A stretch of DNA of 64,000 nucleotides from Nannochloropsis oceanica (lineage: Eukaryota > Sar > Eustigmatophyceae > Eustigmatales > Monodopsidaceae), in contig CP038113.1 in NCBI GenBank assembly GCA_004519485.1, positions 578,501 through 642,500 on the forward strand, written 5' to 3'. The notes under the pieces were generated by a model. The model saw only the letters and a list, made by a program, of their open reading frames with translations. It searched no databases and was not told where the DNA came from. How positions within the stretch are numbered: the first letter of the stretch is position 1; every line of letters starts with the position of its first letter. A program made the position numbers and the translations under genes. Positions 1-54,764 of the stretch are shown here, piece after piece.

Positions 1-219
1 TGGTAGTGGTAGCTGCTCCCAACCTGTTTCTCCCCAGACTTACCCACCCACTCAATCCTCCAATAGGGATGGCTCGGCAGCACCCCCCTCCTCCCCTGTC
101 ATTACTTTGTCCACTCCCTCGCATCCCGCACCACCTACCGCCTCCGCCTTAGGAATAAGCCCTCCTCTTCCTCCTCCTCCCCTCCGTCCCCCCCTCCATC
201 CTCCCATCTCTCCGGGCAG

Positions 220-871
220 GGCTATGCCCACATGGAAAGCAATTACGGGAACCACTTCCCTTCCGGCTGGCTATGGTGCAATGCCATTTCGCCTCAGAGG
301 GAAGTGAAGCTCCTTATGGTGGGAGGCAAATTTGAGATCGGGCCAACGGCTCCTACCACATGGATCGTTGCATTCAGGTCCCCACGTTTTGAATGGACGT
401 TTCGGACCACGGACTTGGACAAGGTAACGGCAAGGCTTGACTATAGCACACGAACATTGAGGTAAGTGAGTGATGGAGGGAGTGGATGAACGAGGACGCC
501 ATGACCTCCAATGCTGCTTTTCATTCATCCACCCATCGCCGAAGTTCCCTCCCCCTTCACTCCTCCTCTCCCTCCCTCCCTGTTATTTCCACCTCTCGCG
601 CAACAGATTGGAAGCCCGCTCAAGATGCGGCCGCCGAAGGATAGAGGTGATGATGGTTGCGCCCCCAGGCTCCTTTGGCCCTCCACTCTACGTCCCTACC
701 CGAGGGGGCTTCTCGTGCTTGCCCGGCTGCCGGGAGTCGTTCACGGCCACAGCGCATATCAAGGCGGTGGACGAGGGGGGGCGCGGAGGGGGAAGGAGGA
801 TTGTTTTGGAAGAGGTGTGTGAGGTGCCTTTGGCGGCACTGGAGCTGGGAGGGGCGTTGCAGCGATTGTGA
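220..871 (+). CDS. VTE1: Tocopherol cyclase-like protein, 3' end only
   Basis: The 5' part lies left of the window. Two exons are visible: 220-456, preceded by a pyrimidine tract ending in CAG, and 606-871, joined across a GTAAGT..CAG intron that keeps the frame. The product carries M-E-x-N-Y-G-x-x-F-P-x-x-W-x-W near its visible start, and near its end P-L-Y-V-P-T-R-G-G-F, G-C-R-E-S-F and A-L-E-L-G-G. From memory of the family these match tocopherol cyclase (the E-K-N-W-G..F-P..W-F-W block and the terminal C-R-D-T and V-E-V-G-G blocks). Tocopherol cyclase closes the chromanol ring of vitamin E at plastoglobules. The pyrimidine-rich stretch 1-219 looks like intron; I see no convincing earlier exon in it. 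A related bacterial-type member of the family cannot be excluded. Confidence 0.68.
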
Positions 872-1669
872 AGAGGGGGGAAGGAGGGAGGAAGAAAGGG
901 ATGGATGCACATAGATTGACAAAAGACGCACGTGTACCACACGCCAGCGTAACACGGCAGGCACGATGACTGCAATTTCTATTTTTAAACAGAACAAAAA
1001 GATTACCAAATGCGAATATTTTATTTGGGGGAAATGCGACAAAAGAAGCTGGCGCCTGCTTTATCTGAGTCTCTATGAATATAAATAAATAATTATTCTG
1101 AATCTTCCTCCTCCTTCTGAAGGCTTCGGACCACGCACCTGGGTTGTGATGATGGCAATGGTAAAAAGAAAGGAGAAAATCGGCTTTGAAAAAAAAAACT
1201 CAATCGATAATTAATATCCATAAAATGCAGCGGCAGCCGCAGTGCACTTTCTTACGTATCTGTTCCGATCGTCGATTGATTTCTTTTTCATTCATCAGGC
1301 CATTACGTCGATTGATTTCTTTTTCATTCATCAAGCCTTTACGTCGATTGATTTCTTTTTCATTCATCAGGCCTTCACGTCGATTGATTTCTTTTTCATT
1401 CGTCAGGCCTTCACGTCGATTGATTTCTGTTTCATTCGTCAGGCCTTCACGTCGATTGATTTCTGTTTCATTCGTCAGGCCTTCACGTCGATTGATTTCT
1501 GTTTCATTCATCAGGCCTTTACAAAAAGTTAGTCTCACGGCCTGCGTTCTGTATGTCATCATCAACACAGTTCCTCTCATCAATCTCCTTCTCCCGGACC
1601 GGTCCACAATAATCAGACGCCCGTGAGCAACGCATCCTCCTTTCCCCCTTCTCTCCTCCCTCAAATCAA
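872..1669. other. Convergent intergenic region
   Basis: This stretch separates the 3' ends of the tocopherol cyclase-like gene (+) and the acetyltransferase gene (-). It contains AT-rich sequence around 1020-1110 that probably serves as 3' UTR and polyadenylation sequence, and the seven-unit 36-bp tandem repeat described separately. I see no gene in it. Confidence 0.6.
1270..1521. repeat. 36-bp minisatellite, seven tandem units
   Basis: Seven consecutive 36-bp units run without spacers, each beginning CGTCGATTGATTTCT. Units differ by one to three substitutions (TTTTTC or TGTTTC after the common start, ATTCATC or ATTCGTC, and variable CCTTTA, CCTTCA or CCATTA ends). The period is a multiple of three, so several frames stay open and would encode 12-residue repeats, but no start, splice site or homology supports coding. 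It lies between two convergent 3' ends and is most likely a simple minisatellite, possibly transcribed within a 3' UTR. Confidence 0.9.
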
Positions 1670-2971
1670 CTACATTATGATGGGCCGCAGCATCACTTCA
1701 CACGCCTCACTCGACAAGGACGGTGCCATGCGAAAGCCCAACCTTTGGTAGTACCCCGTCAACCTCCCACTCCCATTATCATCAACAGTCAACAGAATAT
1801 ATCCTCTTCTCTCCCTCCCCCTTTTCCTCGTCCTCCAGTTTCCGAGTCCGTGTTCCTCTTTCTCTTCTTTCTCTCCAAGCAATGCCTCGCTCACCATCTC
1901 CATCATCTTCTCCCCATATCCCCGCCCTCTAGCCTCGGGCGGGACATAACACCACACCAACACAACCACCGGCAAAGGCCTTAAGCCTCCGCCCGCACAC
2001 TCCCCTCCACCTACCTTCACGCCGACAGTTCTCATTTTGAGCACTCCCCCTTCACTTCCTTTCATTTCATCTATCACTAACTCCTCCACCTCCTCCTCCA
2101 CCACTTCCTCCTCTGCCTCCTCCCACTTAAACAACGCAGCCCCCGCTCGGTCCACCGCCGTGATTGTCCGCGTTTCGGGGATTCGAAATTTGATTCCTAT
2201 CTTACCCAGTACTACCCCCTCACCATCTCCTTCTCCTTTCTTTTGAATTCTTCTTCTCATTTTCCTATTTACCTCTCTCTCCGCACGCGCGGCCGCATAC
2301 AAGCGCCACTCTTGGATCTCCTCGTCTTCCATCGCACCCCTCCCTCCATTCCTCGAATTCCTCGCACCAAACAAGATGGGCGGCAGAAAAATGGATCGGA
2401 GAATGGCGCTTAATCGCGTTAAAGCCTTCTTCATTCTTTCGCGCTTATTTAGAGGTGCACGGAAAAGGACGAAGGGGGAGGAGCAAGATGCGGGGGGGAA
2501 GGAAGAAGGGACGTTGTCATTTTTTACAGTTGCAGGCAGAGGCTGGGGGCCTTCAACCACCCACTCTGTCACTTTCCCTATTCCTTTCCCCTGAATCCTT
2601 TCGTTGTCTTTCTCCTGCCAGTCGTTCGCCAAGACCAGGAGCTCCCGTTCCCATGCCTTTTCCCCTTCTACCCATCGACGTTCCAACCATTCGTCCACCC
2701 ACCCGGAAAACAGAAACGGAAGGAGCCGTCGCCCGGCCAGGTGCAACGCCCGACGGAGCGCATGCCGTTTGAAACGAATGAGGGTGGGTTGGGTGGAGGG
2801 ATGGGTCGCAGGAGGAAGTGTGATGCTGGCCGACTCCTTTGTGGCGAGAAGGGACGAGAAGGAGTAGGGATGGCAAATTGGAGTAGCGGGAACGGGAGCC
2901 AAGAAGGCCATGCCTGGCAGAAAGAGGAGGAAACATGGCAGGAGGAGGGGCAGCAACAGCAGGGATGGCAT
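1670..2971 (-). CDS. GNAT-family N-acetyltransferase, predicted plastid-targeted
   Basis: A single-exon frame of 433 residues. Residues 1-21 are strongly hydrophobic and are followed by A-F-L-A-P (Phe at about 23), which fits the signal peptide plus A-F cleavage motif of secondary red plastids. The C-terminal third has the GNAT acetyl-CoA motif: V-P-P-E-A-R-G-R-G-Y-G-E-K-M-M (the R-G-x-G-x-G loop), then a strand reading I-L-L-T-V-D-D-N-G and the terminal Y-Y-Q-R-L-G-F-R. The middle (about 200-330) is charged and Glu-rich and not recognisable. Like other GNATs it should transfer acetyl from acetyl-CoA to an amine; the substrate cannot be predicted. It is divergently arranged with the GDH-like gene. 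The GNAT assignment is firm, the plastid location an inference. Confidence 0.75.
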   Translation of the reverse strand: MPSLLLLPLLLPCFLLFLPGMAFLAPVPATPICHPYSFSSLLATKESASITLPPATHPSTQPTLIRFKRHALRRALHLAGRRLLPFLFSGWVDEWLERRWVEGEKAWERELLVLANDWQEKDNERIQGKGIGKVTEWVVEGPQPLPATVKNDNVPSSFPPASCSSPFVLFRAPLNKRERMKKALTRLSAILRSIFLPPILFGARNSRNGGRGAMEDEEIQEWRLYAAARAEREVNRKMRRRIQKKGEGDGEGVVLGKIGIKFRIPETRTITAVDRAGAALFKWEEAEEEVVEEEVEELVIDEMKGSEGGVLKMRTVGVKVGGGECAGGGLRPLPVVVLVWCYVPPEARGRGYGEKMMEMVSEALLGEKEEKEEHGLGNWRTRKRGRERRGYILLTVDDNGSGRLTGYYQRLGFRMAPSLSSEACEVMLRPIIM

Positions 2972-3512
2972 GGCCCCTGCCTGTTTGATATGATAATATA
3001 TATGTAGGGCAGTGAGGCAATCGATCCGCCCCGCCCGTTGCTGGCATCATTACCACCGGTGACCATGGCAAGCGAGCTCTACATATTGATCATAATTGAC
3101 CAAGTTCCAGTCTCCGTTGCTATTCATTGCGGCTTATATTTCTTTGTGACGATCAGCCGTGTTGGAGGCTCCTCTTTGTCCTTGCCCTCTGCCCCTTCCT
3201 CGCGGCTTCGCTTTCTTTCCACCGCGCCGGTTGAAGGAGAGGGCGAGGATGGGAATTGGGCTGTCGTCTGATGGTACTTATAATATTCTGGTTGTGTGGT
3301 TCTGTTGTTGTGTTGTTGTGTTGTTCGTATGGCAATTGAATGAGAGGTGCCAACATTTGTGATAATCTGTTTACACTTGTCCCCACATCCACAGCCACAA
3401 CAAGATCAGCACTCAGCAGCCACTTCCCTTCCTTGCCGCGCCTCCTCCAAAGTATCCTTTTAATAATTTGCTTTATTCTCCCCATCACACCACCAAAACA
3501 CAGCTACCAGCC
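2972..3512. promoter_or_regulatory. Divergent intergenic region between acetyltransferase and GDH-like gene
   Basis: About 540 bp between two start codons on opposite strands, so it must hold both promoters and 5' UTRs. It contains a TGTTGT-rich stretch at about 3294-3330 and an AT-rich patch near 2990-3005. I cannot identify a specific core promoter element. Confidence 0.5.
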
Positions 3513-5524
3513 ATGATGCTGCGCTCCCTTGCGAAGCACCTGCATGGCGCAGCCGCCGGAGTGGAAGGCAACGGCGCCCTGCTTGCTGTCAGGGCCATGA
3601 GCACGGCCGCGCCGCCAGCCTCCTCAAAGTAAGTGGGGGTTTGGCGGGGGTTATCAAATTCCAGGAACTCCTGGCGAGAGTGTCGCGCCGTCCGTCACGA
3701 AAGTCTGGGCAAGCACCTGGACCAGACACTTTTTTATCATTTCCCTCTACACCACACCATACCGCAGGTCTTCGCCACTTTCCCAGTACGGCGGTGTTCA
3801 TGGCTCCCGTGCGACGCAGGTATGTCTCTATGTCTTCTACTATCATGCCGTGCCGTGTGATTGTCATTATGCCGAGAGTGTATTTTCTGTGCTCAATGTT
3901 TTTGCGAAAACACCATGATTTTGAACACGCATTCAAGTCACCCTTTCCCCCTCCGCCCCTCCAAGGCATTCAAACAAACCCACCCTCCTTTCCTCCCTCC
4001 TTCCCTCCCTACCCCCCCTCCCCCTCCCTCCCCAAGAAAACCTGGCGCAACAAGCCCCTATTCCGCCGGGAAGGCGACGCTCGCTTTCGCACAGGTGCGG
4101 AGGCTGCGGAGATGTTGATAAATGAAGTCAAGCGCCGTGATTCCCACGAGCAGGAATTCGTGCAAGTCTTTGAGAACGCTATACAAATCCTCGCGCCCGT
4201 GTTCGAACGAATCCCGAAATATGCCTTTGTCGGCAAGGAGTTCATTGAGCCGGAGCGTATTTTCCAGTTCCGTGTGTCGTGGCTGGACGACTCAGGGACA
4301 TACAGGATGAATAGAGGGTTCCGAGTGCAGTACTCCTCGGCGCTAGGGCCTTTCGAAGGGGGCCTGCATTTCCACAAGGATGTGAACGCGGGCTTGATCA
4401 AATCCATGGCATTCGCGCGCGTGTTTACGAATGCCTTGACGGGCTGTGAGATGGGGGCGGCGGTGGGAGGCGCGGACTTCAACCCGATGAACAAGAGCGA
4501 GGCCGAGATCCAGCGTTTTTGCCAGGCTTATATGACGGAGTTGTCAAAATATATTGGTCCTGACCAGGACTTGCCTGGGGTGGGAACGGGGGTTGGGGCA
4601 CGGGAGATAGGGTATCTGTACGGGCAATACAAGCGGACGAGCATTCATCATGCACAGAAGGGCAAGGGCCTGCTGTGGGGGGGGGTGTATCCGTACCCCC
4701 AGGCGACGGCCAGTGGAGTGGCGCACTGGGCAAAGCGGGCCTTGGAAGGGAAGGGGGAGACGATGGAGGGCAAGCGATGTTTGATCACGGGCTCGGGGAA
4801 GATGGCGTTGCATGTGGCGGAGAAATTGTTGGAGATGGGGGCGATTCCCATCACATTGAGTGATACGAGTGGACACATTTATGAGCCGGACGGCCTTGAC
4901 GCGGCGAAGTTGAAAACAATCATGAAAATTAAGAGCGAACGGGGCGCGAGGATCGGTCGTTACATCATCGCCTCTACCACGGCCAAGTACAACGAGCCGG
5001 AGAATGTTTTCAGCGTCCCAGCGGACCTGGTTTTCCCCTGTGCGACACACAATGAGATTGATGGGGTGACTGCCACGATGCTGGCCGACATGGGTGTGCG
5101 AGGGGTGTTCGAGGGGTCGCATATGCCGTCGACGAACCAAGCCATTGCCGTGTATAAGAAGAGGGGGATCTTGCACGGAGGGCATGTGGCAACCATGGCA
5201 GTGGATTCGATTTTCAATGGCTTGGAGCTGTCGAAGGTAAGGAGGGGCCGATAGGGAGGGAGGGAGGGAGGGAGGGACGTTGTTGTCTATGGCGATTTTG
5301 ATATTGTGCACCCTCTTTTCCTTCCCTCCCTCCCTCTGTTTTTGTAGAATTCTCCTTCCATGGAAGAGCTGGATGGACGTATCAAGGACGCAGTCGACGC
5401 GATCTACCTTGAGGCGAAGGCAACGGCCAAGGAATTTAATGTCCGAGGGGATTTGCATGCTGGTGCCATAATGGCGGGGTTTTTGAGGGTGGCTGATACC
5501 ATCATTTGCCATGGGGCAGTTTAG
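3513..5524 (+). CDS. Glutamate dehydrogenase-like protein lacking catalytic residues
   Basis: Four exons (3513-3628, 3768-3819, 4037-5236, 5348-5524) join in frame to 514 residues. The first 39 are basic and Ala/Ser-rich, like a mitochondrial presequence. The rest aligns end to end with the NADP-type hexameric GDH family: F-Q-F-R-V-S-W, V-Q-Y-S-S-A-L-G-P, F-C-Q-A-Y-M-T-E-L, P-C-A-T-H-N-E-I-D and M-A-G-F-L-R-V-A-D. Three functional positions are changed. The substrate lysine of G-P-x-K-G-G is Glu (about residue 163). The catalytic lysine of M-G-G-G-K-G-G is Val (M-G-A-A-V-G-G, about 199). The catalytic Asp of P-A-G-D-I-G-V-G is Gly (about 239). The nucleotide loop G-S-G-N is G-S-G-K. The frame is intact and the fold motifs kept, so I infer a pseudoenzyme or altered function rather than a decayed gene. 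The acceptor of exon 3 was chosen because it restores the frame; a nearby alternative is possible. Confidence 0.85.
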
Positions 5525-6389
5525 GGGTAGGTAAAGAAGTGCATTTTTGTTGGAGAGGAGGAAGGAAATATCGTGGTGGAGAAGGAAGAGGAAAAGGAGG
5601 TGTAGTGACTTTACTTGTGTTAGGTTAGCAGATTTTTTAAGTGTGCCTGAGGTGGTGAAGGGGATGAAAGGTGAGAAGGAAATGGAAATGAATGAAGGAG
5701 AAAGGGAAGAAATTTATGAGGATAGATACGGGAAGGCGTGCGTTTTGAGTGCAGCATTGACGTGTGGTAGTTTATATTGAAGTGTGTCTGGACTGGGTCC
5801 CGGTTTGCCTGCGTCAAGAATGAACGTGCAACGGCAGAGAAAGATAAGAGAGAGAGAGAGAAGAAGAGAGAGGAGGAGAGGGAAGAAGCGGAAGAGAAAG
5901 GAAGAAAGGAAATAAAGATAGAGGAAAAAAAAGGCCTCGAAACTCTCTCATGTAATTTCATGCTCCGCCTTACATACATTCAACTCCAGCCGGCTCCAGA
6001 AAGTGGGGGCGACTCCCTAACTCTCTTTCATTTTGTCTTGTACTTATGTCAAACCAGTCGCATAATACGTCCATTGTTACTCCCCTACCTCCAAACCTTG
6101 TCAACAAGGCGCCTTTCTCTCAACCTCCCTCCCTCCCTCTCTCCCTCCCTCTCTCCCTCCCTCTCTCGAAAAGGAAGAAGTCACTTGAACGACAGCGAAG
6201 AACGAGAGCCGGTCCAAAATAAATAATTTACCTCAGCGAGCGAGACTTGTTCAATCAGCATAAGCAACATAGATTCTTTCTTATTTGATCTTGGTGCTTC
6301 CTTTATCAAGATCATAAACGCCGGCGCCTTGAATAATACATTTGCTTTCTTTGTGTCCGTTTTTCTTTAAGCTTTGACTTTTTCTCGGT
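5525..6389. other. Convergent intergenic region, purine-rich
   Basis: 865 bp between the 3' ends of the GDH-like gene and the rRNA methyltransferase gene. It is GA-rich at 5545-5930 and has a CCCT/CTCC pyrimidine run at about 6120-6165. No frame shows homology or splice support; it is probably two 3' UTRs and spacer. Confidence 0.5.
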
Positions 6390-8288
6390 TCAGAATACGG
6401 CAACAAGCATGGCTGTCAGATAGTTGGACTCTCCGTACACAGCCGATTGCACGTGGCAAGGGGCGGCATGGCTGGTTTGGAGGATGGTGATAGAGCGGCC
6501 AACATCATTGGCCTGTGTGGACAAATTAGTTGACGAAGGGAAGCAATAGATAGGTAAGCTAATGTGATGAAATCTAATTTTCAATTCCGCCCATTCTAAA
6601 TATAATTTCTCCTCTCCTATGTTCTTACGACCCAAACTTACCGCCTGATTGACCATCTTCCTGAACTCTTCCGGTTCCTGCGTTAAGGCCGCCGAGCAGG
6701 TGTGCGTCAGCACTAACCCCCCACTCTTCACCATCCGGAACGCCGCCCGATTGATCTTCAGGTATTTGTGCAATGCCCTTGGCAAGTCCCGTCGAGTCGG
6801 TGCCAGCTTGGGGGGATCCGCAATTATAATGTCAAACGAACGCTCGCCTCCTTCGCCTAGCCCGCGGGCATAGACCAGCACGTCTGATTTGATAAAAGAG
6901 GTCTTGCCTTCTAATCCATTGGCCGCCGCGTTCTCAATCGCAGTCTCCACGGCGAGTGCGGAGCTGTCGACACCGACAACTTCCTTGGCCCCGCCTTTGG
7001 CCGCTGTAACAGAGTAGAGTTGTGGGGGGATAATGAGGAAAAAGGGGACAGGGGTACGAAAACCTAAAAGGGGAGAATGCTGATGCGGTCTCGTGAAAGT
7101 CCACTAACCCCCTGCAGCAATTCTAGGTATCAACATGAAAACAGACAAAAAGCAAAAATTGATGGCGTTCTTCACACACTCAACCTTCCTCCCTCTCTTC
7201 TCTTCCGTCTTACCATTCAATGCAAAGCCACCCGTATAACAAAAGAGATCCAGCACCCGCTTTCCCTTGGACAGACTCTGGATCATCTGCCGGTTCTGAC
7301 GCTGATCACAGTAAAATCCCGTCTTTTGCCCCAGCTCTGGGTAGACCTTGTATTTGATACCCGCCTCCTTCACCCACACAGAGGCCCCCTCCTTTTGTGC
7401 TTCCGCCTTGACGTCAACGAAGGGCTTCACGCCCTCCTCCTTGTCCTCGAACCCATCCTGCGACAATCTCGCCTCGCTCCGACGCCAAACCGTCTTGATC
7501 CCCGACGGGCCCAGCACAGTGTCCAATCCCGCGATAATCGCCTTTTTATGCTTCTCGCACCACAATGAACTGCTGGACACGACACAGACCTTGTCAAAGA
7601 CATCGGCGGCCAGCCCACTCAATCGATCTCCCTCCCCATTCACCAACCGAAAGCACGTCGTCTCCTTGTTCGGCAGCCCCAACGCCTGCCTCGTTGCCCA
7701 TGCCGTGCTCACCCGCCGTGTGACCATATCCTCCAAAGAAGCCGCATATGATGCCTCCCCTCGCTCGCGGGCATGCCACAGGAGACGGACACGGTACATG
7801 CTCTGGGAATTGTAGCACCCCTTGCCAATCAAATTGCCTCTATGGTCCACCACCTCCACAAAATCACCATCCGCCACGTCTCCTACCACATCATGGACGG
7901 CTTCTCCGTATACCAACGGATTGCCCTCCAAAAACAAGCGAGCCTTTCCTGCCCGTAGCACGACATGCGGATAATCCCTCTGGATCCTGTCGGAGGGCTC
8001 GACCTCAGTCTCACGGGGAGGCGGACGGGAAGACGTGCGCTGTCCCCCACCACCGCCACCACGATAATCGCTGCCTCCTCCACCTCCTCCACCACCATAA
8101 CCAACGCGGCTGCTGCTGTGGGCGGTGGCTGTGGCCGCTTTACTCCCGGAAAGGCCAGTCGTAGACGCCGTCCAAGCCCGTGAGGATTGTTGGATCAAGG
8201 GCGCAAAGGCAAAAGTCCGACGGACCATGAGCAGCATTGAAATGGACGTGGTCAAGAGCATGACGCAGGAAGTCTCGCGATGCTTCAT
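6390..8288 (-). CDS. RlmI-type 23S rRNA (cytosine-5) methyltransferase, predicted plastid
   Basis: Three exons on the minus strand (7214-8288, 6642-7003, 6390-6512) join in frame to 519 residues. The ATG at 8288 is chosen because the next 30 residues form a signal segment ending in T-F-A-F-A-P, a plastid-type presequence of red secondary plastids. A Gly-rich linker follows, then a PUA domain (about 110-180; V-V-L-R-A-G-K-A-R-L-F, N-P-L-V-Y-G-E-A-V) and a Rossmann methyltransferase domain. The latter has the SAM motif V-L-D-L-F-C-Y-T-G-G-F-A-L, motif IV A-D-P-P-K-L and H-T-C-S-A-A-L carrying the probable nucleophilic cysteine. The order matches E. coli RlmI, which makes m5C1962 in 23S rRNA. 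I infer methylation of plastid 23S rRNA; the exact target base is not proven. It shares a 402-bp divergent upstream region with the prolyl hydroxylase gene. Confidence 0.85.
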
Positions 8289-8690
8289 AGCTATCGAGTA
8301 TGCATGAAAGAGCGTTGAGTACGTGTGGGCCAGTGATAACAGCAACAGCAACTTGTCCAAGACTGGCGAACCATTACTTCACGAGAACCGACAATCACCA
8401 TGGGGTGAGTGAGCATCGCCAAAAGGAGGCAGGCAAGCCTGAAGCAAGCATGTACGGTCCATTTCTGCGGCATTGTGTAAACACCATCGCAGCAGGTCCC
8501 CATAGTCCTGTTGTGCAGCATGGTGGCCTCGTGCGGGACGTTGAGTCATCATCAAATTACGCGCTTGACCGGTCCGGCTGGCGCTCTGCCTTTCTTCCAT
8601 GCCCCATCCCCAACAAACGGAACGCCCTACATCCCTCACACTCACTCCTTTACTCAAAATTTCCAGTGCTTCTGCAAAGACGACGACGCT
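8289..8690. promoter_or_regulatory. Divergent intergenic region, RlmI-like and prolyl hydroxylase genes
   Basis: 402 bp between start codons on opposite strands. It must contain both 5' UTRs and core promoters. No recognisable TATA element or other motif stands out by eye. Confidence 0.45.
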
Positions 8691-10812
8691 ATGGCCAGTC
8701 GACGCACTTCCTCCAGCACACCGGCGCAAAAGCCCATGAAAGGCAGGATCCCCGAGTCCCACCAGCTCGACGAGGATGACAATGGCTCTCTGCTTTCCTC
8801 CTTGGCCGCCACCTCGTCTTCTTCCCCCCTCCTGGCATTCTTGAAATCCAACCCCTTGATCATCGTGATAGCTGCATTAGCCGCCGGGGTATATTTTGGC
8901 ATGAAGCACCAGTCTCAAGGCGTGGACCTGGCCGACAGCGTCTCCTCTTTTCTCCACGAAGGACGCAGCGACAGCATCACCGCGCGTGCCCCCACCCTCG
9001 CGACTCCCTCTCTTGCTTCCTCCTCCCAGCAAGAGCAGCACATGGCAGGTACCCCTATGAAAGCCCGAAAGAAGCAGCGACAATCCAAGCAGGAGGGACA
9101 AGAATGTGCTACCACTTCCCGTCTCGCCCTTTTTCTCTCGCGAAACGTCACCGTCCACATCTGCCGCAACGGCCAAAGCATCCCCATGGGAACCCTGTAC
9201 CTTACTCCCAGCAGCACCCGTTGCCTCGACGACCTCCGAAACGCGGTGGGTGATTTATTGCCTGCATGTGTTCCTGGGGCCTGCCGACTCTTTGATCGCT
9301 ATGGGTATGAAATCAAGGCTCTAGGCGCCCTGCAAGATGAGCAGCTTCTCTTCGCCGTCCTCCCCAAGCGACACTTCATGTGGCCGGCCTTCGAGGTCGG
9401 GCACAAAGTTGCTGTGCCTGGAGTGACTTCCTCAATCCCGGGGCAGCCTATCACGCTGGAGACGCTATCGGAGTCTCCGCGTGTGTTCTTGGTCGAAAAT
9501 TTCCTCTCTCCCCAAGACGCGGAGGACTTGATTGAGAATGCCCTAGGTATTTTAGGTGGCAGTTTGGCATACATTTGCTGATAATTAAGGGAAAGAGTGT
9601 GAGATAAAAGAGTCTTTGGCTTTCTTTTCCCTCTCCTTTGGCCTGCATTAGATGCTTACCAACTCAGTCCCCTCCTTCCCTTCCTTCCCTTCTTCCCTTA
9701 TTTTTTCCAGGCATTACTGCCGAAGGCTTTGCTCTTAAGCGATCCACCACAGGCGCAGAGGGGTCTGAGGTATCTTCGCAACGAACGAGCGAGAATGCAT
9801 TTGATACTACCTCGCCCATTGCGATGAAGCTAAAGAGAAGGGTGTTTGACCTTCTGGGGATGAGGTACGTATGTAAGCAGGGCGGGAGGGAGGGAGGTGG
9901 GGACGAAAGGACAGAAAAGTAGAAGTAAGCCATCAACTCACGAATATCCTGTCCCCTCCCTCCCTCCCTCCCTCCCTTAGGCCCTACGTCGAGACCTGGG
10001 CGGATGGTCTTCAAGTGCTCCGCTACAATGAAAGCAAGGCTTACATCTCCCATTTAGACTATCTGGAGGTCAATGACCGGTCCAACCACGATTTTGACTC
10101 AGCAAGGGAGGGAGGGACCAACCGCTTTGCAACCGTGCTGCTGTACCTCACGGATGTGGAACAGGGGGGCGAGACGGTGTTTCCCCACGGATACAAATTG
10201 GAGGGGGAAACCTTGTCAAAAAAGGAGGCATTGGCCAAGGCAAAAGCCCTCGGGTTGACCGCGGCCCTCCAACCGGGTTCGTGGCAAGAGGAGATGATGG
10301 GCGAATGTATCAACAGGCTAGCGGTCAAACCCAAAAAGGCACGAGCTGTCTTGTTCTACTCTCAGAATGAGGACGGGACGGTGGACAAGAGAAGCCTGCA
10401 TGGTGCGTGCCCGGTCATCAAGGGAGTGAAGTGGGCAGCAAACCTCTGGGTCTGGAACGGTCCGAGGTACGGATACAGTGCCAGGCAGAGAGAGAAGGCA
10501 GTGGCAGCGGCGGAAGGGGAGGACTGGAAGGGGAATGGGGAAGGGAAAGGGAAGGGGAAGTATAAGGGACGGGACGGGAGGGTGGAGGCAGAGTTTTCAA
10601 GTAGCGTTGGCGGAGTGGCTTTGTTCTGGGAGGAGACAAGGTGGGGAGAGATGGGACCAGGGCTACCGGCGGTAAAGGCCATAACGTATCAGAACCATAA
10701 GTGGAATGTGAGGAGGGAGGAAGGAGGGGAGGGAGGGGAGGTGTTGGTGGCTTGGGAGATTAAGACCGCGGAGGCGGTGGAGGGGGTGGTGAAATTTAAT
10801 TATGCAGGGTGA
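8691..10812 (+). CDS. Membrane-anchored prolyl 4-hydroxylase (2OG-Fe(II) oxygenase)
   Basis: Three exons (8691-9546, 9711-9864, 9981-10812) give 613 residues. A short cytosolic N-terminus precedes one membrane span (about 56-74, rich in I, V, A, G), a Golgi/ER type II topology. Residues about 155-235 form a compact segment (V-T-V-H-I-C-R-N-G.. to ..L-L-F-A-V-L-P) that I do not recognise; it has a ubiquitin-like feel. The catalytic domain follows: R-T-S-E-N-A-F-D, then H361-L-D363 as iron ligands, T-V-L-L-Y-L-T-D-V with G-G-E-T-V-F-P, distal His477 in S-L-H-G-A-C-P-V, and Lys487 ten residues later for 2-oxoglutarate. All expected active-site residues are present. About 115 further residues after the domain are Gly/Lys-rich and not recognised. 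The enzyme hydroxylates peptidyl proline, probably in cell-wall or secreted proteins. Confidence 0.9.
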
Positions 10813-11267
10813 AGGAGGGAAGGAGGGCTGGTAAGATGGAAAGTATATGTGTGTAACGATAAAGGGAAATAGGAATGCGACTCAATCACAAACCCAGAAG
10901 CATGACCGAGAGGACCGACGAAAAGAAGACGATGAGAGCAAGCAACAACAGTTAAACAAGCACTTTATTCATTGAAGCGTATTACATGTATACAAGTATG
11001 CATGAAATAAATGTATGCATGTAATACATGAATGCATGAAGGTACCACCAACGTTGTCGTTTGGAATGCCATCGAGCGCCTGTCTCGACACATCGAAATA
11101 TGGAATTCCCTTCTTGATTGCTTCTCTGTATTTTTTTATTTCTTTGATTTCATTCCACACTACTTTGCTATCAACAGCATCAAAATGTGAATCTCGTGCA
11201 AAATTGTGTGTGTGACTGTGTGTACAAGCCCTCCTTCTAGTCATCCACTTATCCTCTTCTCACCTTG
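10813..11267. other. Convergent intergenic region
   Basis: 455 bp between the ends of the prolyl hydroxylase gene (+) and the zinc-finger gene (-). It contains a short direct-repeat patch of ATGCATG/TACATG words at about 10980-11040 and otherwise AT-rich UTR-like sequence. No gene is seen. Confidence 0.5.
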
Positions 11268-11657
11268 TCAAGCCACCTGGCACCCTATCCCTCCTCCCTC
11301 CCCTCCTCCCACTTCCCTCCGCCCGTCCTCTCCATGCTCTCTCTCCACGTGTTCAACCAGCAGTACGGGGTCCACAAACGAGGCCCGACAGAATGGACAC
11401 CCACCATCCGCCGTCTGCCCCGCCTGGGAGGGCCGGATGGAGGGGGGGGTACTGCTGCTACTACTGCCGTCGTCGTTGGTCAAATCCACGTCATTGCTGT
11501 TGTTTTTGTTTTTATGTCCCGCTTGCCCTGGATAAGCCCCCCCTGCTCCTACTACCCTTCCCCGTCGGCGTCGTTCCGTCGTTCCTTGCAATGAATTGCT
11601 TGGATCAGGTGTCGGCCTGTTGCTGCCCCTACTCCCTCGCCGCGCATGATGGCCATT

Positions 11658-11688
<31 letters not shown>

Positions 11689-12819
11689 CTGCCCTTACCG
11701 TTCGCCACACTGCCTCCCCCCCGCCCCCTCCCCCCCGCTGCTGCAGCTGCTCGTACAGGCGTGGTCGGCTTTCCCTTGCCGATGTTACTGCTGCCACCCC
11801 CCATTCCTCCGCCACCACCACCAAACCAAGAAGCAACGCCCCTCATTCCCCCCCTTCCCTGCTTGACTGCTCCCGTGCAAGCATGGTGGTCTTTGTACCG
11901 ATGCCTAAGACAGACTTCCTTTCTACAGGCGCCACATACATGGGTATTACTCGGGCCCATCACTTCCTTGCAGCCCTTCACTCCGCATCGTTCTCGCTTC
12001 GTTTTCTGCGCAGGTTTGCATTCAGCAGAGCTCGAATGGAGCTGCCAGACGAGGTTGGGGTCTTGTGCAGCTGTCAGGGTGAGAGTGAGCGCACAGACGG
12101 GGCACTTGATCGCTATTTGTTGTTTTTGCCCTTGATGTGGACAGCTGTGGGCGGCGTAGGTGCGGTGTTCGAGGCAAAAGGTTCGCTTGCAGCAGTCTGT
12201 TTGGTTTGAGGTAAGGTGGTTAAGGGACGGCAAGAAAGGAGGGTGGGTAAATAAATGGCATAGATTGATAGCATGCTTGTGAGAAGCGATGATGGAGAGA
12301 GATGCAAGGGGACAAGACAAGGGGAAAATGCAAGCGTGGAGCTTAAGAAGAGATGGATGACGGCATTGCTTACGCTAAAAGTGACAGCTTGACCGGGCAA
12401 GCCCAGAAAATACATCGGGAGATAAACACAGACCATCCATTGCTGCGCTCCTGTCGGTGCGTTTGTCGCCGGCCCACTGTCATGGCTAGGGAGCATGGCG
12501 TAAGCAAGAGCCATCGCCGTCCGGCGCGTAAATGGAGGGAGGGAGGGTGGGAGGAGGCAACGCATCGGCCCGCGGTCCATCACAGGCCTCGAAAGACGCA
12601 GAGCACTCTAGGCTCAACATTACGTTCTCGCTCGACGCAACGAAACGTCGCCTGGGCTTGCATCATGACATAGCGACCGTGCAGGGCACACACAGCGGGG
12701 GCAGGACAGGGAGGGGATGGGGGGAAGAAGGGGAAGCACATACCGCAGTGAAAAGGCAGGAAGTCACGAAGATTGCAGAACCCCACACTGCAGTGTGCAC
12801 CCAGATCTTGAAACTCCAT
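11268..12819 (-). CDS. AN1-AN1-C2H2 zinc-finger protein (SAP/ZFAND2 type)
   Basis: Two exons (12744-12819 and 11268-12196) encode 334 residues. Exon 1 starts M-E-F-Q-D-L-G and ends inside the first AN1 finger; the join gives F-H-C-D-C-C-K-R-T-F-C..H-R-T-Y-A-A-H-S-C, so the finger is complete only across the splice. A second AN1 finger follows (R-C-G-V-K-G-C..H-V-C-G-A-C..H-R-Y-K-D-H-H-A-C). A long Gly/Ser low-complexity linker leads to a C-terminal C2H2 finger (C-P-F-C..L-L-V-E-H-V-E-R-E-H). The AN1-AN1-C2H2 order resembles plant stress-associated proteins SAP11/13; animal ZFAND2 lacks the C2H2 part. These proteins act in ubiquitin-proteasome stress responses. The intron of about 550 bp holds the left breakpoint of the tandem duplication, so this copy is intact while exon 1 exists a second time at 18703-18778. 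Confidence 0.85.
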
Positions 12820-21451: not shown

Positions 21452-24400
21452 CTACCTCTGTTCCTGCAACTGCTCCTGCCTCACCGCAACGATCGCTTCT
21501 CCAATCTCCTTTTCCGCCACCTCCCTCCTTGCCAATGCCGTCTTTTTGACGTGATTCAATTCGTGCATGACCGTATCCCATACGAAGCTCAAGGTACTTC
21601 CACTCATGTATGTCACTTCGTAGATCGCCGAGGCCACAGCCAAGCGCCGCCTGTCAAATCTGCTGTTGATGTTTCCACTTTCGCCGCTCGTTGTCGTCGT
21701 CGTCGTTGTCTTCACGGTCGTGGCTGGTACTCTGCTATTTTCGTTATTTTTATCACCTACTGTCACTGTGGCTTCCGCCTTGGTGGGAAGTGTATTGTCC
21801 GCCAGAAGCTGCAAGGGCCGTCGCTCTTCTCCTCCTGCCCCAATTCCTTCTTCTTCATCTCCTCTCTTGTTCGCTGATGTCATCTTGTCCCCTCCACTTG
21901 CTCTAGCTGTGGCAAGGAAGGCCTGCTTAAAAGGCGCCAGCACCTCCGACTTGAGAGCCTGATACTCTCCGGGGTCATCATTTTGCTGCTGCTGCTGCTG
22001 CCGCTGCTGCTGCTGCGCATGGTACCGCCGTCCCATCCTTCGGGCATACGACTGTCGGTAAGCCTTGAGCCATGACTGTGCTTGCTCGAGAAAGGCCGCC
22101 GAGCCCTCTACCCTCAAGTCACTGTCCAAACGAAGAGTATCTGCTGGAGAAATGAAGGCGTTGCCACCACCGCTGGAGTATGTAACATTCTTTTTGCCAC
22201 CTCTCATACTACTACTGCTGCTGGTGGTGGTGCTGCTGCTGCTACTGCTCTTGTCGTCCGCCAAAAGGGGCGCAACACGGGCATGGATGCGGCCAAGCAG
22301 CGTGTCGACTTCGGAGTAGCTCAAGACGCGATGATAGGAGGATAATGAGGAGGAGGAGAAGGCTGAGGATGAGCTCCATCCACTTCGGTCCAGATAACTT
22401 GGGCGATGAGCAGGCTTGAGTACGGTAGGCAAGGACCACAGCAGCCCCGTCTTGGCGCTATCAAGCGCCCTCGCCGCAATTTCTCCCAGAATCAAGCAAT
22501 TCGACGAGCAGGCCCCACGGAGATCTGCATGCCTCAACCACCAATCACTGGCACTGGCGACGATATCGTGGGCCTTACCGTGCGCCATGCAGCTCTCCAA
22601 GCACCGTTTCATGACCGCAGCATCCACCTGGAGGCCGACCGACTCGGCATTGAAATGGAAAGGCCCAACGACCGTCAGCATCTCGGAGCCTGGACACGGT
22701 GGTTGTGGTGATGATGGTGCTGCTGACGGTGCTGCTGGGATAGCGCTGGAGCCACCACTGATGCTGCTACTACTGCTACCACGGCTCTTGCTCCTCTCCA
22801 TCTTCTGTACATGAATCGGACGCGCAAATGACACAATATCCTTATGCATACACACAAAATAAGTGTCCCCGTCCATATCCCCTTCCGATAATCGAGAGGC
22901 CGGGCTTGGTGTGCCTTGAACACTGAAAAATAATACTCCTGCCCGTGGCCCTAGGAAAGCTTGAAGCGCGGGTTGTTTCACTGCCTGAAATGCTTGTACA
23001 TGTGCAGGATTATAAATGGGGTGCCTTGCCAATAGCACCTTCCCCTCGTAGACCCCATCCTCCGTCCCTCCTTCCGGTAGGCCCTCATATCCTGTCGGTA
23101 GCCCATGACTTACGTATACCTCGTCAGGCTTGAGAACACCCAGTGGGTCCGGCTGCCCCACCACATAAAGAGAAGAAGGACAAAAGACCCGTCCCTGCTG
23201 TAACTTGACCAGTGCACGACTGCGAAGGCCTAAGAGGGTTTTTCGGATGTATGCTTCGTTTACCCCATGTCCTGCTTTCAACATTTCTGCTACCTGCCAC
23301 TCCGCCGACGAGCGGATAAGCGTTGAACTTGATCGCCGCAGCAGAGCCGCGGCCTGCTCTGCATCAGTGCACGCAGAACGCAGCAAGCTGAGTTCGTCCT
23401 CCACCAGTTTGATAAATACGGTGTCAGGTACTTCCAGCGCCTGCAGGATCAGCACCAATTCGCGGGAGAGACGGGTGCTTGCTTTCAATACACGAAAGGT
23501 TGTCAGCACGTCCAGGCTAGGCCGACGAGTCAAAGGAGTAACCGACAGATTGGGAGGAGGAAATTTCAGCATGGAAGAACGTCGGAGCTGGATCTTGTTT
23601 TGAAGGCGTGGGTGAACAAGGAGGGTGCCTTTAAACCCACCCATGTGGCATATGACCCGCACTTGGATAACAGCAAACGGAGGCACAGCAAGGGAAGGCC
23701 CGATGAGCGGGGCAGCAGGCAGGGCTCGCCCCTGGTATAAATGCGGGGGCAAGTGTGAGACAAGATCGGGCGATATAAATCCCGAGCCGTCTGTCATGAC
23801 AGCACTATCCTCGCTTGCAAATATGTCGTTAATCAACTCGATTTGCCTCGGTTCCAAGCTCAAGGATTGTGATCGACTAAACCCCAACGCCACCCGCGCC
23901 ACCAGCCGCGGGACACAGGGAAAATTGAAGAAATTTCCCAGTCCCGCAATCATGCACTGGGCAGACATGACCCGAAATCCTGTTTCTTCCTTACCCGTAG
24001 AGTCTTCTGCCACAAAATAACACACCCCATTCCTATCCGATTTGTGGTTGATGTATTTATAGCGTCGACAAGCAAAATGAATCCCCTCCTGTGCAAGCAC
24101 TTGCAAGGCATGTCTCCCCCGCTCACTCCACCAATGTCGGCGGTTACCAAATTGTACGCGCATAAATCGATCATGTCCCACGGCACGATGTATAAAAGTA
24201 GAGCTACCCCGCATCCCCATGGGGCCCATGTGCTTTATCACAAACCCCGTCCCCGCCTCCTTGTCTAATGTCAACCGCACCCCCCAATCCACCACTCCTC
24301 CCCCTATAAATGCCTCTGCTACTCCTTCCATCATTTCTTTGCCCACAAAACGAGTCAGCACGGCCTCTGCCTGTGGTAGCCCGCCTGAACGATGCACGTC

Positions 24401-25048
24401 CCGTAGGATAGGAGCAGCTTTGCGGGATACCAACATTTCAGGAGTCAAGCTATATTCAACCAACGCCCGCATAGGGAAGGGCAAGGTGCGAAATAGTGGC
24501 CACGCTGGGTCATGTTCAGGGAAGGGTGCATAAGTGGGCGAGAGGCTGCTGGCCCCCACTAGATTTTGAAGGGTGTGCGTCAACCGGGCCTTCACGTGGG
24601 CCGCATCCTTGGCATCTGAGGAATGCTGCGCCCACGCCTGCATCGACGATAGGACTTCTATCCTATGTTCCATTGGAAGCTGAGATAAGGCACTGATAAG
24701 GTAGGGGCCGCAGGCGAAGCCGAGTTTGTGGCTCCCTACCAGGACGTAGAAGGGCTGCTCGTGGTGAGCGGGCTTTTGAACGAAAACGACTGACGGTGTG
24801 GGTTGAGGTTGATTGAGCATGAATTCTTGGTGCTGCTGTTGACCTTGTTTCTGCTGCGTAAGCTGAGTCTGCAATGCTAATCGCGCCATTTGAATGGTGG
24901 GCACTTCTTGTGTCAATGGTGGACGAGGGTTTGGTTGTGTGTCGTCTCTAGCATCGGCGGCGATTGTGAGGTTGGAAGTCATGCTCGAATTGCTGTAGCT
25001 ACTACTATAGCTATTGCTGCTGATTTTTCCGCCCGGGTTTTCTATCAT
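21452..25048 (-). CDS. Cellular RNA-dependent RNA polymerase (RDR, RNA silencing)
   Basis: One long exon of 1198 residues from the ATG at 25048; the frame is open a little further upstream without an ATG. It has hallmarks of the eukaryotic RDR family (RdRP, PF05183): D-G-S-G-F-I-S, V-L-L-A-R-H-P-I-Y-N-P-A-H-V, and the catalytic loop R-L-S-E-G-D-M-D-G-D-T-Y-F-V (DNA 22865-22879, about residue 724). Plant enzymes have L-D-G-D at this loop, so the M is a conservative variant. These enzymes make double-stranded RNA from single-stranded templates to feed Dicer/Argonaute silencing. The N-terminal 100 residues are Gln/Ser-rich. The C-terminal 400 residues hold a Ser tract, a CAG-encoded Gln tract and a Thr tract, and are not recognised. 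A truncated copy lies at 16203-18298. Confidence 0.88.
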   Translation of the reverse strand: MIENPGGKISSNSYSSSYSNSSMTSNLTIAADARDDTQPNPRPPLTQEVPTIQMARLALQTQLTQQKQGQQQHQEFMLNQPQPTPSVVFVQKPAHHEQPFYVLVGSHKLGFACGPYLISALSQLPMEHRIEVLSSMQAWAQHSSDAKDAAHVKARLTHTLQNLVGASSLSPTYAPFPEHDPAWPLFRTLPFPMRALVEYSLTPEMLVSRKAAPILRDVHRSGGLPQAEAVLTRFVGKEMMEGVAEAFIGGGVVDWGVRLTLDKEAGTGFVIKHMGPMGMRGSSTFIHRAVGHDRFMRVQFGNRRHWWSERGRHALQVLAQEGIHFACRRYKYINHKSDRNGVCYFVAEDSTGKEETGFRVMSAQCMIAGLGNFFNFPCVPRLVARVALGFSRSQSLSLEPRQIELINDIFASEDSAVMTDGSGFISPDLVSHLPPHLYQGRALPAAPLIGPSLAVPPFAVIQVRVICHMGGFKGTLLVHPRLQNKIQLRRSSMLKFPPPNLSVTPLTRRPSLDVLTTFRVLKASTRLSRELVLILQALEVPDTVFIKLVEDELSLLRSACTDAEQAAALLRRSSSTLIRSSAEWQVAEMLKAGHGVNEAYIRKTLLGLRSRALVKLQQGRVFCPSSLYVVGQPDPLGVLKPDEVYVSHGLPTGYEGLPEGGTEDGVYEGKVLLARHPIYNPAHVQAFQAVKQPALQAFLGPRAGVLFFSVQGTPSPASRLSEGDMDGDTYFVCMHKDIVSFARPIHVQKMERSKSRGSSSSSISGGSSAIPAAPSAAPSSPQPPCPGSEMLTVVGPFHFNAESVGLQVDAAVMKRCLESCMAHGKAHDIVASASDWWLRHADLRGACSSNCLILGEIAARALDSAKTGLLWSLPTVLKPAHRPSYLDRSGWSSSSAFSSSSLSSYHRVLSYSEVDTLLGRIHARVAPLLADDKSSSSSSTTTSSSSSMRGGKKNVTYSSGGGNAFISPADTLRLDSDLRVEGSAAFLEQAQSWLKAYRQSYARRMGRRYHAQQQQRQQQQQQNDDPGEYQALKSEVLAPFKQAFLATARASGGDKMTSANKRGDEEEGIGAGGEERRPLQLLADNTLPTKAEATVTVGDKNNENSRVPATTVKTTTTTTTSGESGNINSRFDRRRLAVASAIYEVTYMSGSTLSFVWDTVMHELNHVKKTALARREVAEKEIGEAIVAVRQEQLQEQR

Positions 25049-25596
25049 GATTGCGTGTGTCCGTGTGTATATTGCGGTCCCACGGAACAAATTGAAGCAG
25101 CAGGAGCAAGACAATTTGCCGGAGACGCGCTTGTTTACGGCCTGTAATTTGGAAGGCAGAATGCAAGGGATAGAAGGTCAGTACCCTTGGCGGCCATGAA
25201 AGTGCTAGTAGCTTGTGGGACAAGGTGTGCATTTTGCAGTCGCGAGCGACCAGGCAATAGCAGGGTGGCCAAAAACTTGCCAGCTTACAATACAACGCCC
25301 TATCCCAAGCCGTTGACTGGCCGTTTACTAAAAGTACTACTTTCTGTGGCCTTATCTCTCACCGTACAACTGATATCCCGCCTGGACAAGTTGCGGTTAG
25401 AGCCTGTCAGCCAGTCAGCCAGAACGTCAGACAGCTAAACAGTTATAAGTGCAGCGAAACCCAGGGAGAGGACATCAAGGGTGTAAGCACCTTTTCCAGC
25501 CATGCCGTTGCTGTGATGTCAGTTGTGTGTTCAACATGACTCAAAAGCTTCCTCTCTTTCTATACACACTCTTGAATTACGCACAGCATTACCATC
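25049..25596. promoter_or_regulatory. Divergent intergenic region, polymerase and DENN genes
   Basis: 548 bp between start codons on opposite strands, so both promoters lie here. A short repeated AGCCAGTCAGCCAGAACGTC-like patch occurs near 25405-25430. No other signal is identified. Confidence 0.45.
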
Positions 25597-51174: not shown

Positions 51175-54100
51175 TTATAGCACAGAGTACCGTCCAAATT
51201 GCGGTCGAGCCCCCACCCTCAAAGTCTCCTCATCCAAAATCCGCTGGAACTCTCTCCGCGCCTGCCGGACCGCAAGCTCGGTCTTGCCTTCAATCAAAAG
51301 ATAAAGCTTCCTCTCACCCGCCTCCAGCGTGTGTTCCTGCCCAGGGGCGACATACCTCCCCCTCGTAATCACCGAACACTCCGTCCGCTCCTGCACTTGA
51401 GAAACAGATTCCTTTTGCGTGGCCTTCCACCGTGCCTGCTGCGGGTAATCGTTAACGTCCAGTTCTTCAAAAAAGTGCTCAGTCTCCTTCTTACTCATTA
51501 ACTTCCCACCAGCAATAGCCAACGCGGCCTTGACAGCATCCGCTGCTGTGATTGACGAGGAGCCCGAAGAACCGCCACCAGCAGCACCTGCAGTGGCCGC
51601 AGCAGAGGAAAAAGAAGGGACAGCAGCAGCAAGTTTTCCAGCCACGGCCCGAGCGCGGGCCAAGGCGTCGGAGGTGGAGGACGGAGAAGCGGAGGGAGGG
51701 GAAGACGCGGAGGGTGTCACTGCTGTAGCTGCTGCAGAGGGGACAACAGTCACAGACGGTCCTCCTTGTTTGAGCTTCTCAGCCAGCGCCTTCGCACGTT
51801 CAAGAGCAGCGGAAATTCCTCCACCACCTCCTCCGGCAAGGCTAGGAAGTACAGAGGCGCCTGCTCCTCCTCCTCCTATTCCTGCTGCGGCTGCCGCTCC
51901 CGCCGCTGCAGCTGCTGCAGAAGCTTGCTTCTTCCGTTGATCCTCCTCCTCTTCCTGCTCCTCCTCATCACTGTCCCCCCCCTCCCCCCCTCCCCCCTTC
52001 CCCTCCTCGGTGACCAACCCCTGCTCTATCTGATACTGCCGTTTCTGCAACGCCGCCGTGCGCTGGGCGTCCGTCTGCTCGCTCTCATCAAACGTGAACC
52101 CTTTGCCCCCAAAGCCCGATCCCGCCCACTGGGCCTGGCCCTGGCTCACCTTCTCTTGGAAAGCCTCGGCCATCCTCCTCAGCTCCGGAGGCACCTCCTG
52201 CTTGCTCTGCGTCAACGCCTTGTATAACAACGGCGCGTACTGATCTTCCTCCGGGGTAATGAAGGTGTAGGCCGTCCCTTTCCTTCCCGCCCTCCCCGTC
52301 CTCCCGACACGGTGGACATAGTCTTCCAAGTGGTTCGGGCATGAGAAATTAATCACACAACACAATTCCGGCACGTCCAACCCCCGCCCTGCCACGCTCG
52401 TCGCCACCATCAATGTCCTCGCCCTCGATTTAAAGTCATGGATCGTCGAGTCGCGGTCCATCTGATCCATGCCCCCGTGTAGGGACAAGCAAGGGTAGCC
52501 ACTCTTCATCAAATCCGCAAACAGGTTGTCGCACTTCGCCTGCGTGTCCACGAATATCAACACATTCCCCTTCTCGTACCATACCCCTAACAGCTGTAAC
52601 AACCGCATGAACTTCTCTTCCCCTTCCTCCCTCACTTCCACGTACTGCGTGATCGCATCCGACGCCACGCTTCGCCCGCCCACCAGAATCTCCAACGGGA
52701 ATGCCAGGACCTTTCGGGCCAACGTTTCGACCTGCTTGGGGAACGTCGCCGAGAACAAAACCGTCTGTCGGTCAGGTCGCACATTTGTCAGGATCATCTT
52801 GATCTGCGGTTCGAAACCCATGTCAAACATCCGATCAGCCTCATCCATCACTACGAAGCTCACCCGCGAGAGGCTCATGAGCTTCCCCGCTTGCATAGTC
52901 AGGATATCAATCATCCTCCCCGGGGTACACACTACAATGTGCGCACCTCGTTTCAACTCCCCTATCTGATCGCCGATGCCTGCGCCGCCATACACAGCCA
53001 CACACCTCAAGCCCAAGGGCCGGCAAAACTTCTTCGCTTCCAAATGAATCTGTACTGCCAACTCCCGTGCCGGGGCCATGATGAGCCCAATGGGTCCCTC
53101 CCCCTCCCCCAAGGGGTAAGTCCCCTCCTGATCCAAGATGTGCCGCAAGAGGGGCAAGAGGAAGGCCAGTGTCTTCCCAGACCCGGTTTTGGCAACGCCT
53201 ATGATGTCCCTCCCCGCCATGATGGCGGGCAAGGCCTGCCGTTGAATGGGAAAGGGTTCCAAGAGCTTCCATTTTTTAAGGAGCCCTAGCACGCGTTCCG
53301 GCAAACCTGATTGCTCCCATGTCTCGAGAGGCGCCGGACAGCCCTTTCCTCGCACTTTGATCTCCAGGAGGTCCCGGCGGGAGGCGAGTTCCGTGTCTGT
53401 GAGGCCGTGGAGGGCACGGGGGATGATGTAGAGTTTCTTGCGGATGGGAAGGTAGGCGACTTGGGAATGGTCGACGGGCTTAAGTTCCTTCTTCTTAACT
53501 TGCTCTTGAAGAATCTCGAGGGAGGTCTTCTGTTGGGCGGCTCTCGACAGGGCGTCCTCATCCTCGTCCTCCAAGTCGCCGTCCGATTGGAAGAGCCGGC
53601 CCAGACGGGTTGCAGAGGAGGTGGGTGGGGGAGGTAGGGGCATGGTAGTGGTGCTGGTGGAGGAAGGAGGAAGAGCAGGAGTAGCAGCAGCAGCAGGAGT
53701 AGGAGCAGCAGTCGCAGCAGCAGGAGTAGTTGTAGAAGCTGTCGGTGCTGGCTCCCCCCGAATGGCTGCCAAGAACGCCTGCCGGTCCGCCTCAAGTTTC
53801 TCCTCGTCCTCCTCCTCTTCCTCCTCTCCTGTCTCTTTCTTCTCCCCCCCTTGCCTCCCGTTCTCCTCCTCGTCCATCATCCCTCCCTCATCCTCCTCCG
53901 CGTCCTCTCCGTCGATGTCCGTGTCCGACTCCCACCCTGCCTTCCCTCCTGACCTTCCAACCCCCCTTCCTCCACCAAAGAGCTCCTCCATCGTTATCGT
54001 GTTACTCCCCAAAGGATCATATCCACCATTCGCCTTCCCCCTCCTCCCCCCAGCCCTCCCCCCCGTCCTCCCTCCCCCTATGCCGTCCCCCGTGCCGAAC

Positions 54101-54733
54101 GCCCCGTACATCTCTGCCTGTGCCCGGACCCCTCCCCCCTCCCCTCCATCCTGCCTCTCCCTCCCTCCCTCCACATTTCTCTCCAGGGAAGACATGAAAG
54201 CATCGAGGGGATCCCCCTCCTCCTCCTCGTCCTCCTCCATCCCATTGAGTGATAGATGTTTCTCCACCGATAAAACACTTGAAGGCGTATCATTACTGCC
54301 ACTCCTCCTCTCCGATGGCACCATCCCTCCCTCCAACTCCTCCTCCTCCTCTCCATCATCCTCCAAAGACCACTTTTTCACTCCCTTTATCCCTCCTCCT
54401 ATCTTTCCACCCACACTCCCAGTCAGGGCCAGAGCGGCCTGCGCCAGCCTAGCTGTGGTGCTGGCTGCTGCTGCTGCTGCTGCAGCAGCAGCAGCAGCAG
54501 CAGCTTCCTTCTGCCGACGTTCCTCCTGGAAAAGCCGAATACGCTCCGCCCTTTTCTGCATCTCTCTCTCCGCTACTGCCTCAGCATCTTCCACCTCCTG
54601 CCCTCCCTGCCCTCCCTGCCCCGCTTCCTCCGTCGTGGTCGTCGTCGCCGGCGGTGCTGCAGATGCAGAAGGAGGGGAGGAGGAGGCTAGAAGGGTACTC
54701 GCTGCCGCTACTGCTGCTGCTGTCCCTGCTTGG

Positions 54734-54764
<31 letters not shown>

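Follow-up and report, generated by a model that had tools for sequence, protein, structure and literature searches.

An intact glutamate dehydrogenase-like gene with a replaced active site in Nannochloropsis oceanica

The window analysed here is a stretch of 64,000 nucleotides from the genome of Nannochloropsis oceanica (assembly GCA_004519485.1, contig CP038113.1, positions 578,501 to 642,500), and at positions 3513 to 5524 of its plus strand lies a gene that resembles those for glutamate dehydrogenase (GDH). A first-pass annotation of the same DNA had described an intact four-exon gene with GDH motifs, and this description holds: spliced translation of the four exons gives 514 amino acids in one open frame with zero internal stops, matched by PF02812 and PF00208. 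Exon 1 (3513..3628) carries the start codon and an N-terminal extension, the remainder of which is encoded by exon 2 (3768..3819); judged by eye, residues 1 to 56 resemble a mitochondrial presequence. Exon 3 (4037..5236) encodes residues 57 to 456, comprising both GDH domains minus the C-terminal end of domain I, and exon 4 (5348..5524) encodes residues 457 to 514 and the stop codon. The intron donors read GTAAGT, GTATGT and GTAAGG. The model was built from the sequence alone, and the predicted exon 3 acceptor at 4036 is one of four frame-keeping choices (4036, 4054, 4102 and 4111); the three alternatives alter only residues upstream of the GDH core.

The gene has a coding-type base composition, with guanine plus cytosine (GC) fractions of 0.57, 0.45 and 0.70 at codon positions 1, 2 and 3, against 0.53 in the introns. 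It displays none of the marks of a pseudogene that were looked for (stops, frameshifts, lost coding bias), and both its open frame and its codon bias speak against its being a decayed pseudogene. Under a crude neutral simulation restricted to substitutions, 0 of 300 copies were still stop-free once 37% of residues had changed, while 3% were so at 20% and 6% at 10%. An open frame of 389 codons on the minus strand (4544-5713), antisense to the gene, is probably a by-product of codon bias on the sense strand.

The predicted protein has the two ELFV domains, N- and C-terminal, that define the small GDH class, with PF02812 matching at E 8.8e-40 (135.9 bits, cut-off 25.3) and PF00208 at E 2.8e-44 (152.1 bits, cut-off 23.4). 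No profile outside the GDH family matched it in Pfam or NCBIfam at E 0.001, and at the same threshold there was no match to PF05088, a domain of the large nicotinamide adenine dinucleotide (NAD)-dependent GDHs. Against NF006929, the NCBIfam equivalog for GDHs that use NAD phosphate (NADP), it scored 424.7 bits, below the cut-off of 536, while a canonical control, L005 from an Acidobacteriota contig, scored 688.6. The closest protein of known structure by sequence is the small-class GDH of Plasmodium falciparum (3r3j, E 2.1e-110). A predicted structure gave a mean predicted local distance difference test (pLDDT) score of 61.7, compared with 63.8 for a canonical GDH modelled likewise, and its top structural matches are GDHs, so that the model is consistent with a GDH fold; the Foldseek template modelling scores of about 0.5-0.66 and root-mean-square deviations of 8-11 reflect the low confidence of the model. 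Since the canonical control scores about equally low, the model is not evidence of misfolding, and the low pLDDT is likely to stem from a shallow alignment and the absent C-terminal exon. By descent, these matches indicate, the protein is a member of the small (approximately 50 kDa) GDH class.

Fifty small-class GDHs served as references for the alignment: L005, two other loci from the genome of L005, 11 loci from viral contigs, six plasmid genes, and 30 from a phylum sample, which were the best 30 of 277 matching among 297 sampled genomes of the phylum of L005 and are therefore biased towards the closest matches, with no bearing on the others. The distant GDHs L057 and L058 (plasmid) were set apart. 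Identity of the GDH-like protein to the 50 references ranges from 35.6 to 43.4%, and within this alignment the active-site residues listed below are replaced. The substrate lysine of the GPxKGG motif, here GPFEGG, is Glu at residue 163 (4355..4357), the catalytic lysine of MGGGKGG, here MGAAVGG, is Val at residue 199 (4463..4465), and the AGD of PAGDIGVG is GVG at residues 237-239 (4577..4585; A237G, G238V, D239G), which removes the catalytic Asp; the original residue at each of these positions is present in 50/50 references. The second substrate lysine is Thr at residue 187 (4427..4429; K in 49/50), two conserved arginines are His at residue 167 (4367..4369; R in 50/50) and Tyr at residue 276 (4694..4696; R in 49/50), the Asn of the dinucleotide loop is Lys at residue 311 (4799..4801; GSGKMA, N in 50/50), and the Asn of the EGAN motif is His at residue 418 (5120..5122; N in 49/50). 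Further on, NAGGVAxS has become MAVDSIFN at residues 443-450 (5195..5218; N443M, G445V, G446D, V447S, S450N). All ten of the active-site positions listed, which were picked after the alignment had been inspected, are thus replaced; they were named by what we take to be the numbering of the Clostridium symbiosum enzyme, in which the two substrate lysines are presumably K89 and K113. The first-pass annotation had reported the changes K to E, K to V, D to G and, in the loop, Asn to Lys that lie at residues 163, 199, 239 and 311, all of which are real, and its statement that three key active-site residues were lost is correct for those three and an undercount.

The changes extend well beyond the listed residues. 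Of the alignment columns, 121 are conserved in 98% or more of the references; the GDH-like protein breaks 45 of them, one by a missing residue, and outside the ten listed positions the count is 35 of 111. By the stricter measure of identity in all 50 references, 31 of 90 columns are broken. When each reference was left out in turn, the worst (L005 and L056) broke 6 of 96 and 38 of the 50 broke zero. An otherwise ordinary GDH can depart at a single position: of six residues checked, one is changed in L005 and one in L033. What is retained are the Rossmann glycines, the SD motif and Asp332.

For GDH1 of Arabidopsis, a published study identifies Asp142 as the general base, with Lys102 priming water, and places Arg70, Asp142 and Asn312 in contact with the nicotinamide ribose (PMC7326016). 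Matched by motif and spacing, Asp142, Lys102, Arg70 and Asn312 would correspond to residues 239, 199, 167 and 418, which are here Gly, Val, His and His. Since the two substrate lysines, the catalytic Lys and Asp, and conserved residues on the nicotinamide side are all replaced, the interconversion of glutamate and 2-oxoglutarate has almost certainly been lost. The retained Rossmann glycines and SD motif suggest that a nucleotide might still bind through its adenosine half, and the change from Asn to Lys at residue 311 could favour a phosphate. The claim in the first-pass annotation that the active site was lost while the reading frame was kept finds support in the alignment, the GC of the codon positions and the neutral simulation.

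The assembly searched for other GDHs comprises 29,264,788 bases in 32 contigs, with the window on contig C16; the searches cover assembled sequence, and those with profiles score best candidates only. PF02812 was found in one place, the window gene, and PF00208 in the window gene and in a large NAD-dependent GDH on contig C3, while a canonical GDH protein used as a tblastn query matched the window gene alone. No second small-class GDH was thus found in the assembly with either Pfam model or the protein query, nor a second copy or haplotype, the DNA of exon 3 matching only itself. The sensitivity was sufficient to pick up a match of only 44 residues to another family (PF01645 on C8) in the same genome, and a canonical GDH interrupted by introns would therefore be expected to show. 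The label of paralogue given in the first-pass annotation is accordingly doubtful, and its proposal to look for a separate catalytic GDH has a divided answer: none of the small class was found, and one of the large class is present. This gene (L002, C3:743633-747337) lies in at least two open-frame pieces, matches PF05088, and contains the stretch LKNKDIPEGGSK, in which the lysines can be paired, though weakly, with the lysine motif of a GDH of known structure, so that the cell appears to retain one catalytic GDH, of the large class. A match to glutamate synthase lies on C10.

Relatives were also sought outside the genome. The protein of exon 3 found a single GDH among the genome contigs, L005, which has the canonical residues at the four K/K/K/D positions checked, and the same query had no match among the viral contigs. 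Two alignment-based scans of the viral contigs gave 11 and 18 loci. The 11 of the first are canonical at residues 163, 199 and 239 and lie on the same contigs as 11 of the second; by a pattern check, the catalytic lysine and aspartate motifs are present in all of the other seven, and the GPxKGG motif in five of these, the remaining two (L072 and L074) being partial. In the plasmid collection 465 records match, with best identities below 60%, and eight among the 40 matches listed were retrieved. A tree places the GDH-like protein with three apicomplexan GDHs (support 90/87); descent from a eukaryotic GDH is only hinted at by this grouping, because the branch is very long and the tree holds no algal sequences.

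Comparison with known systems helps to define what is unusual. The small-class hexameric NADP-GDHs of the ELFV family, such as GdhA of Escherichia coli and the GDHs of Plasmodium and Babesia, are alike in both Pfam domains, motif order and fold-model matches, but the present protein differs in its ten replaced active-site residues and its score below the NF006929 cut-off. The large NAD-dependent GDHs (GDH115 and GDH180 classes), to which the C3 gene belongs, share PF00208 with it but form another size class, marked by the PF05088 domain that it lacks at the threshold used. GdhA of Thermus thermophilus, a catalytically inactive subunit whose role in the GdhA/GdhB heterohexamer is regulatory (PDB 3AOE; PMC9570180), likewise combines a GDH fold with absence of GDH catalysis, but pairs with the catalytic GdhB, whereas no partner of the same class was found in this genome. 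YwlG of Staphylococcus aureus, a possible GDH-like pseudoenzyme, has a GDH-like fold, and recombinant YwlG alone is reported to lack dehydrogenase activity (PMC9522360); in contrast, the protein described here has the two domains and is about 40% identical to GDHs. A further account cites, among pseudo-oxidoreductases, an ALDH2 variant that is itself inactive and inhibits the active partner (PMC10211241). An inactive GDH subunit is thus already known; what is unusual here is how far the loss has gone and that a partner is lacking.

We regard it as highly probable that the gene encodes a functional protein, and as rather probable that this protein is a non-catalytic pseudoenzyme with no GDH function. 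An active small-class GDH would have been the ancestor of a folded pseudoenzyme of the same family, which would be produced, imported into mitochondria and self-assemble; retaining its nucleotide-binding half (GSG loop and SD motif), it may serve as a sensor, scaffold or regulator that works through a bound nucleotide or protein partner and not through catalysis. Its most likely role is thus a non-catalytic one, exerted by binding and without a GDH partner of the same class, while the specific detail of nucleotide sensing or regulation is doubtful. Somewhat less doubtful, but still tentative, is a broader proposal in which, in an alga with glutamate synthase and a large NAD-dependent GDH, the whole small-class lineage became a stand-alone, non-catalytic protein with a rebuilt cleft and no catalytic GDH partner of its class; selection would have fixed it in Nannochloropsis, either as a new enzyme or as a sensor of nucleotides or metabolites in the mitochondrion.

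Several observations weigh against a functional pseudoenzyme. No orthologue was found in the prokaryotic, viral and plasmid collections scanned; of the 45 near-invariant columns that are broken, 35 are at positions other than the ten listed, so that residues have been lost beyond the active site as well; and the branch of the protein measures 3.5 changes per column where end branches have a median of 0.57, comparable in length only to the two distant class rows of the tree. Structure confidence in domain I is low in the model and its control alike, and the gene is known from genome sequence alone, its ligand and partner being hypothetical. The long branch would also fit relaxed constraint, under which the old GDH became dispensable through glutamate synthase and the large NAD-dependent GDH, both present in the genome, and is becoming a pseudogene whose frame is open by chance or recency. 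The scattered column losses favour this explanation, but 514 codons without a stop or frameshift, the coding-type GC at all three codon positions and the failure of any of the neutral runs to stay open at 37% change speak against it, even if some did so at lower divergence under that crude model, and we consider it unlikely.

Less likely again is that the GDH fold has been turned to a different enzyme, in which a remodelled cleft accepts another substrate for another, possibly nucleotide-dependent, reaction. The substrate-side residues are replaced rather than deleted, and the Rossmann glycines and Asp332 are kept, as such an enzyme would allow, but the nicotinamide side is changed as well (R167H, D239G, N418H), no new candidate acid/base pair was seen, and GDH-family profiles alone were matched. 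The regulation of a catalytic GDH in mixed hexamers, suggested in the first-pass annotation, has its precedent in Thermus GdhA, but with no other small-class GDH found by two Pfam models and the canonical protein query, and the other GDH being of the large class, the idea lacks a partner in this assembly and is very improbable. An assembly or sequencing error, for which it can be said that one assembly was examined, is scarcely credible, as Val199, Gly239 and Tyr276 could each have arisen from a codon of the earlier residue only by two or more base changes, and no break interrupts the frame.

A non-catalytic pseudoenzyme of this kind would matter beyond the gene itself, for Nannochloropsis studies concerned with nitrogen starvation and with oil production take the term glutamate dehydrogenase from annotation. 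In a proteome paper on the genus, one GDH, IMET_1767, which may or may not be the window gene, is listed and described as catalysing glutamate synthesis (PMC7302151); if the window gene carries a label of this type, the flux assigned to it would be wrong. No pseudo-GDH in Nannochloropsis was named in the listed titles or abstract openings of the literature searched, and the term glutamate dehydrogenase is absent from the main texts of PMC3499364, PMC3886936 and PMC10245428. If the interpretation is true, a pseudo-GDH without a catalytic partner of its own class would offer a clean case for asking why a dead metabolic enzyme is kept.

Across positions 1-12000 of the window there was no Rfam match at gathering score. 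A tandem repeat with a 36-base unit (6.9 copies, 96% matches) occupies 1270-1519, and downstream of the GDH-like gene an open frame on the minus strand (7107-8378) has PUA_3 and S-adenosylmethionine-dependent methyltransferase domains and presumably resembles RNA methyltransferases of the RlmI type. A long open frame on the minus strand (21455-25177) contains an RNA-dependent RNA polymerase domain (PF05183, E 1.5e-82), which we take to be of a family of eukaryotic RNA silencing, and one of 1514 codons, also on the minus strand (51178-55719), encodes a DEAD-box helicase with a C-terminal KH domain.
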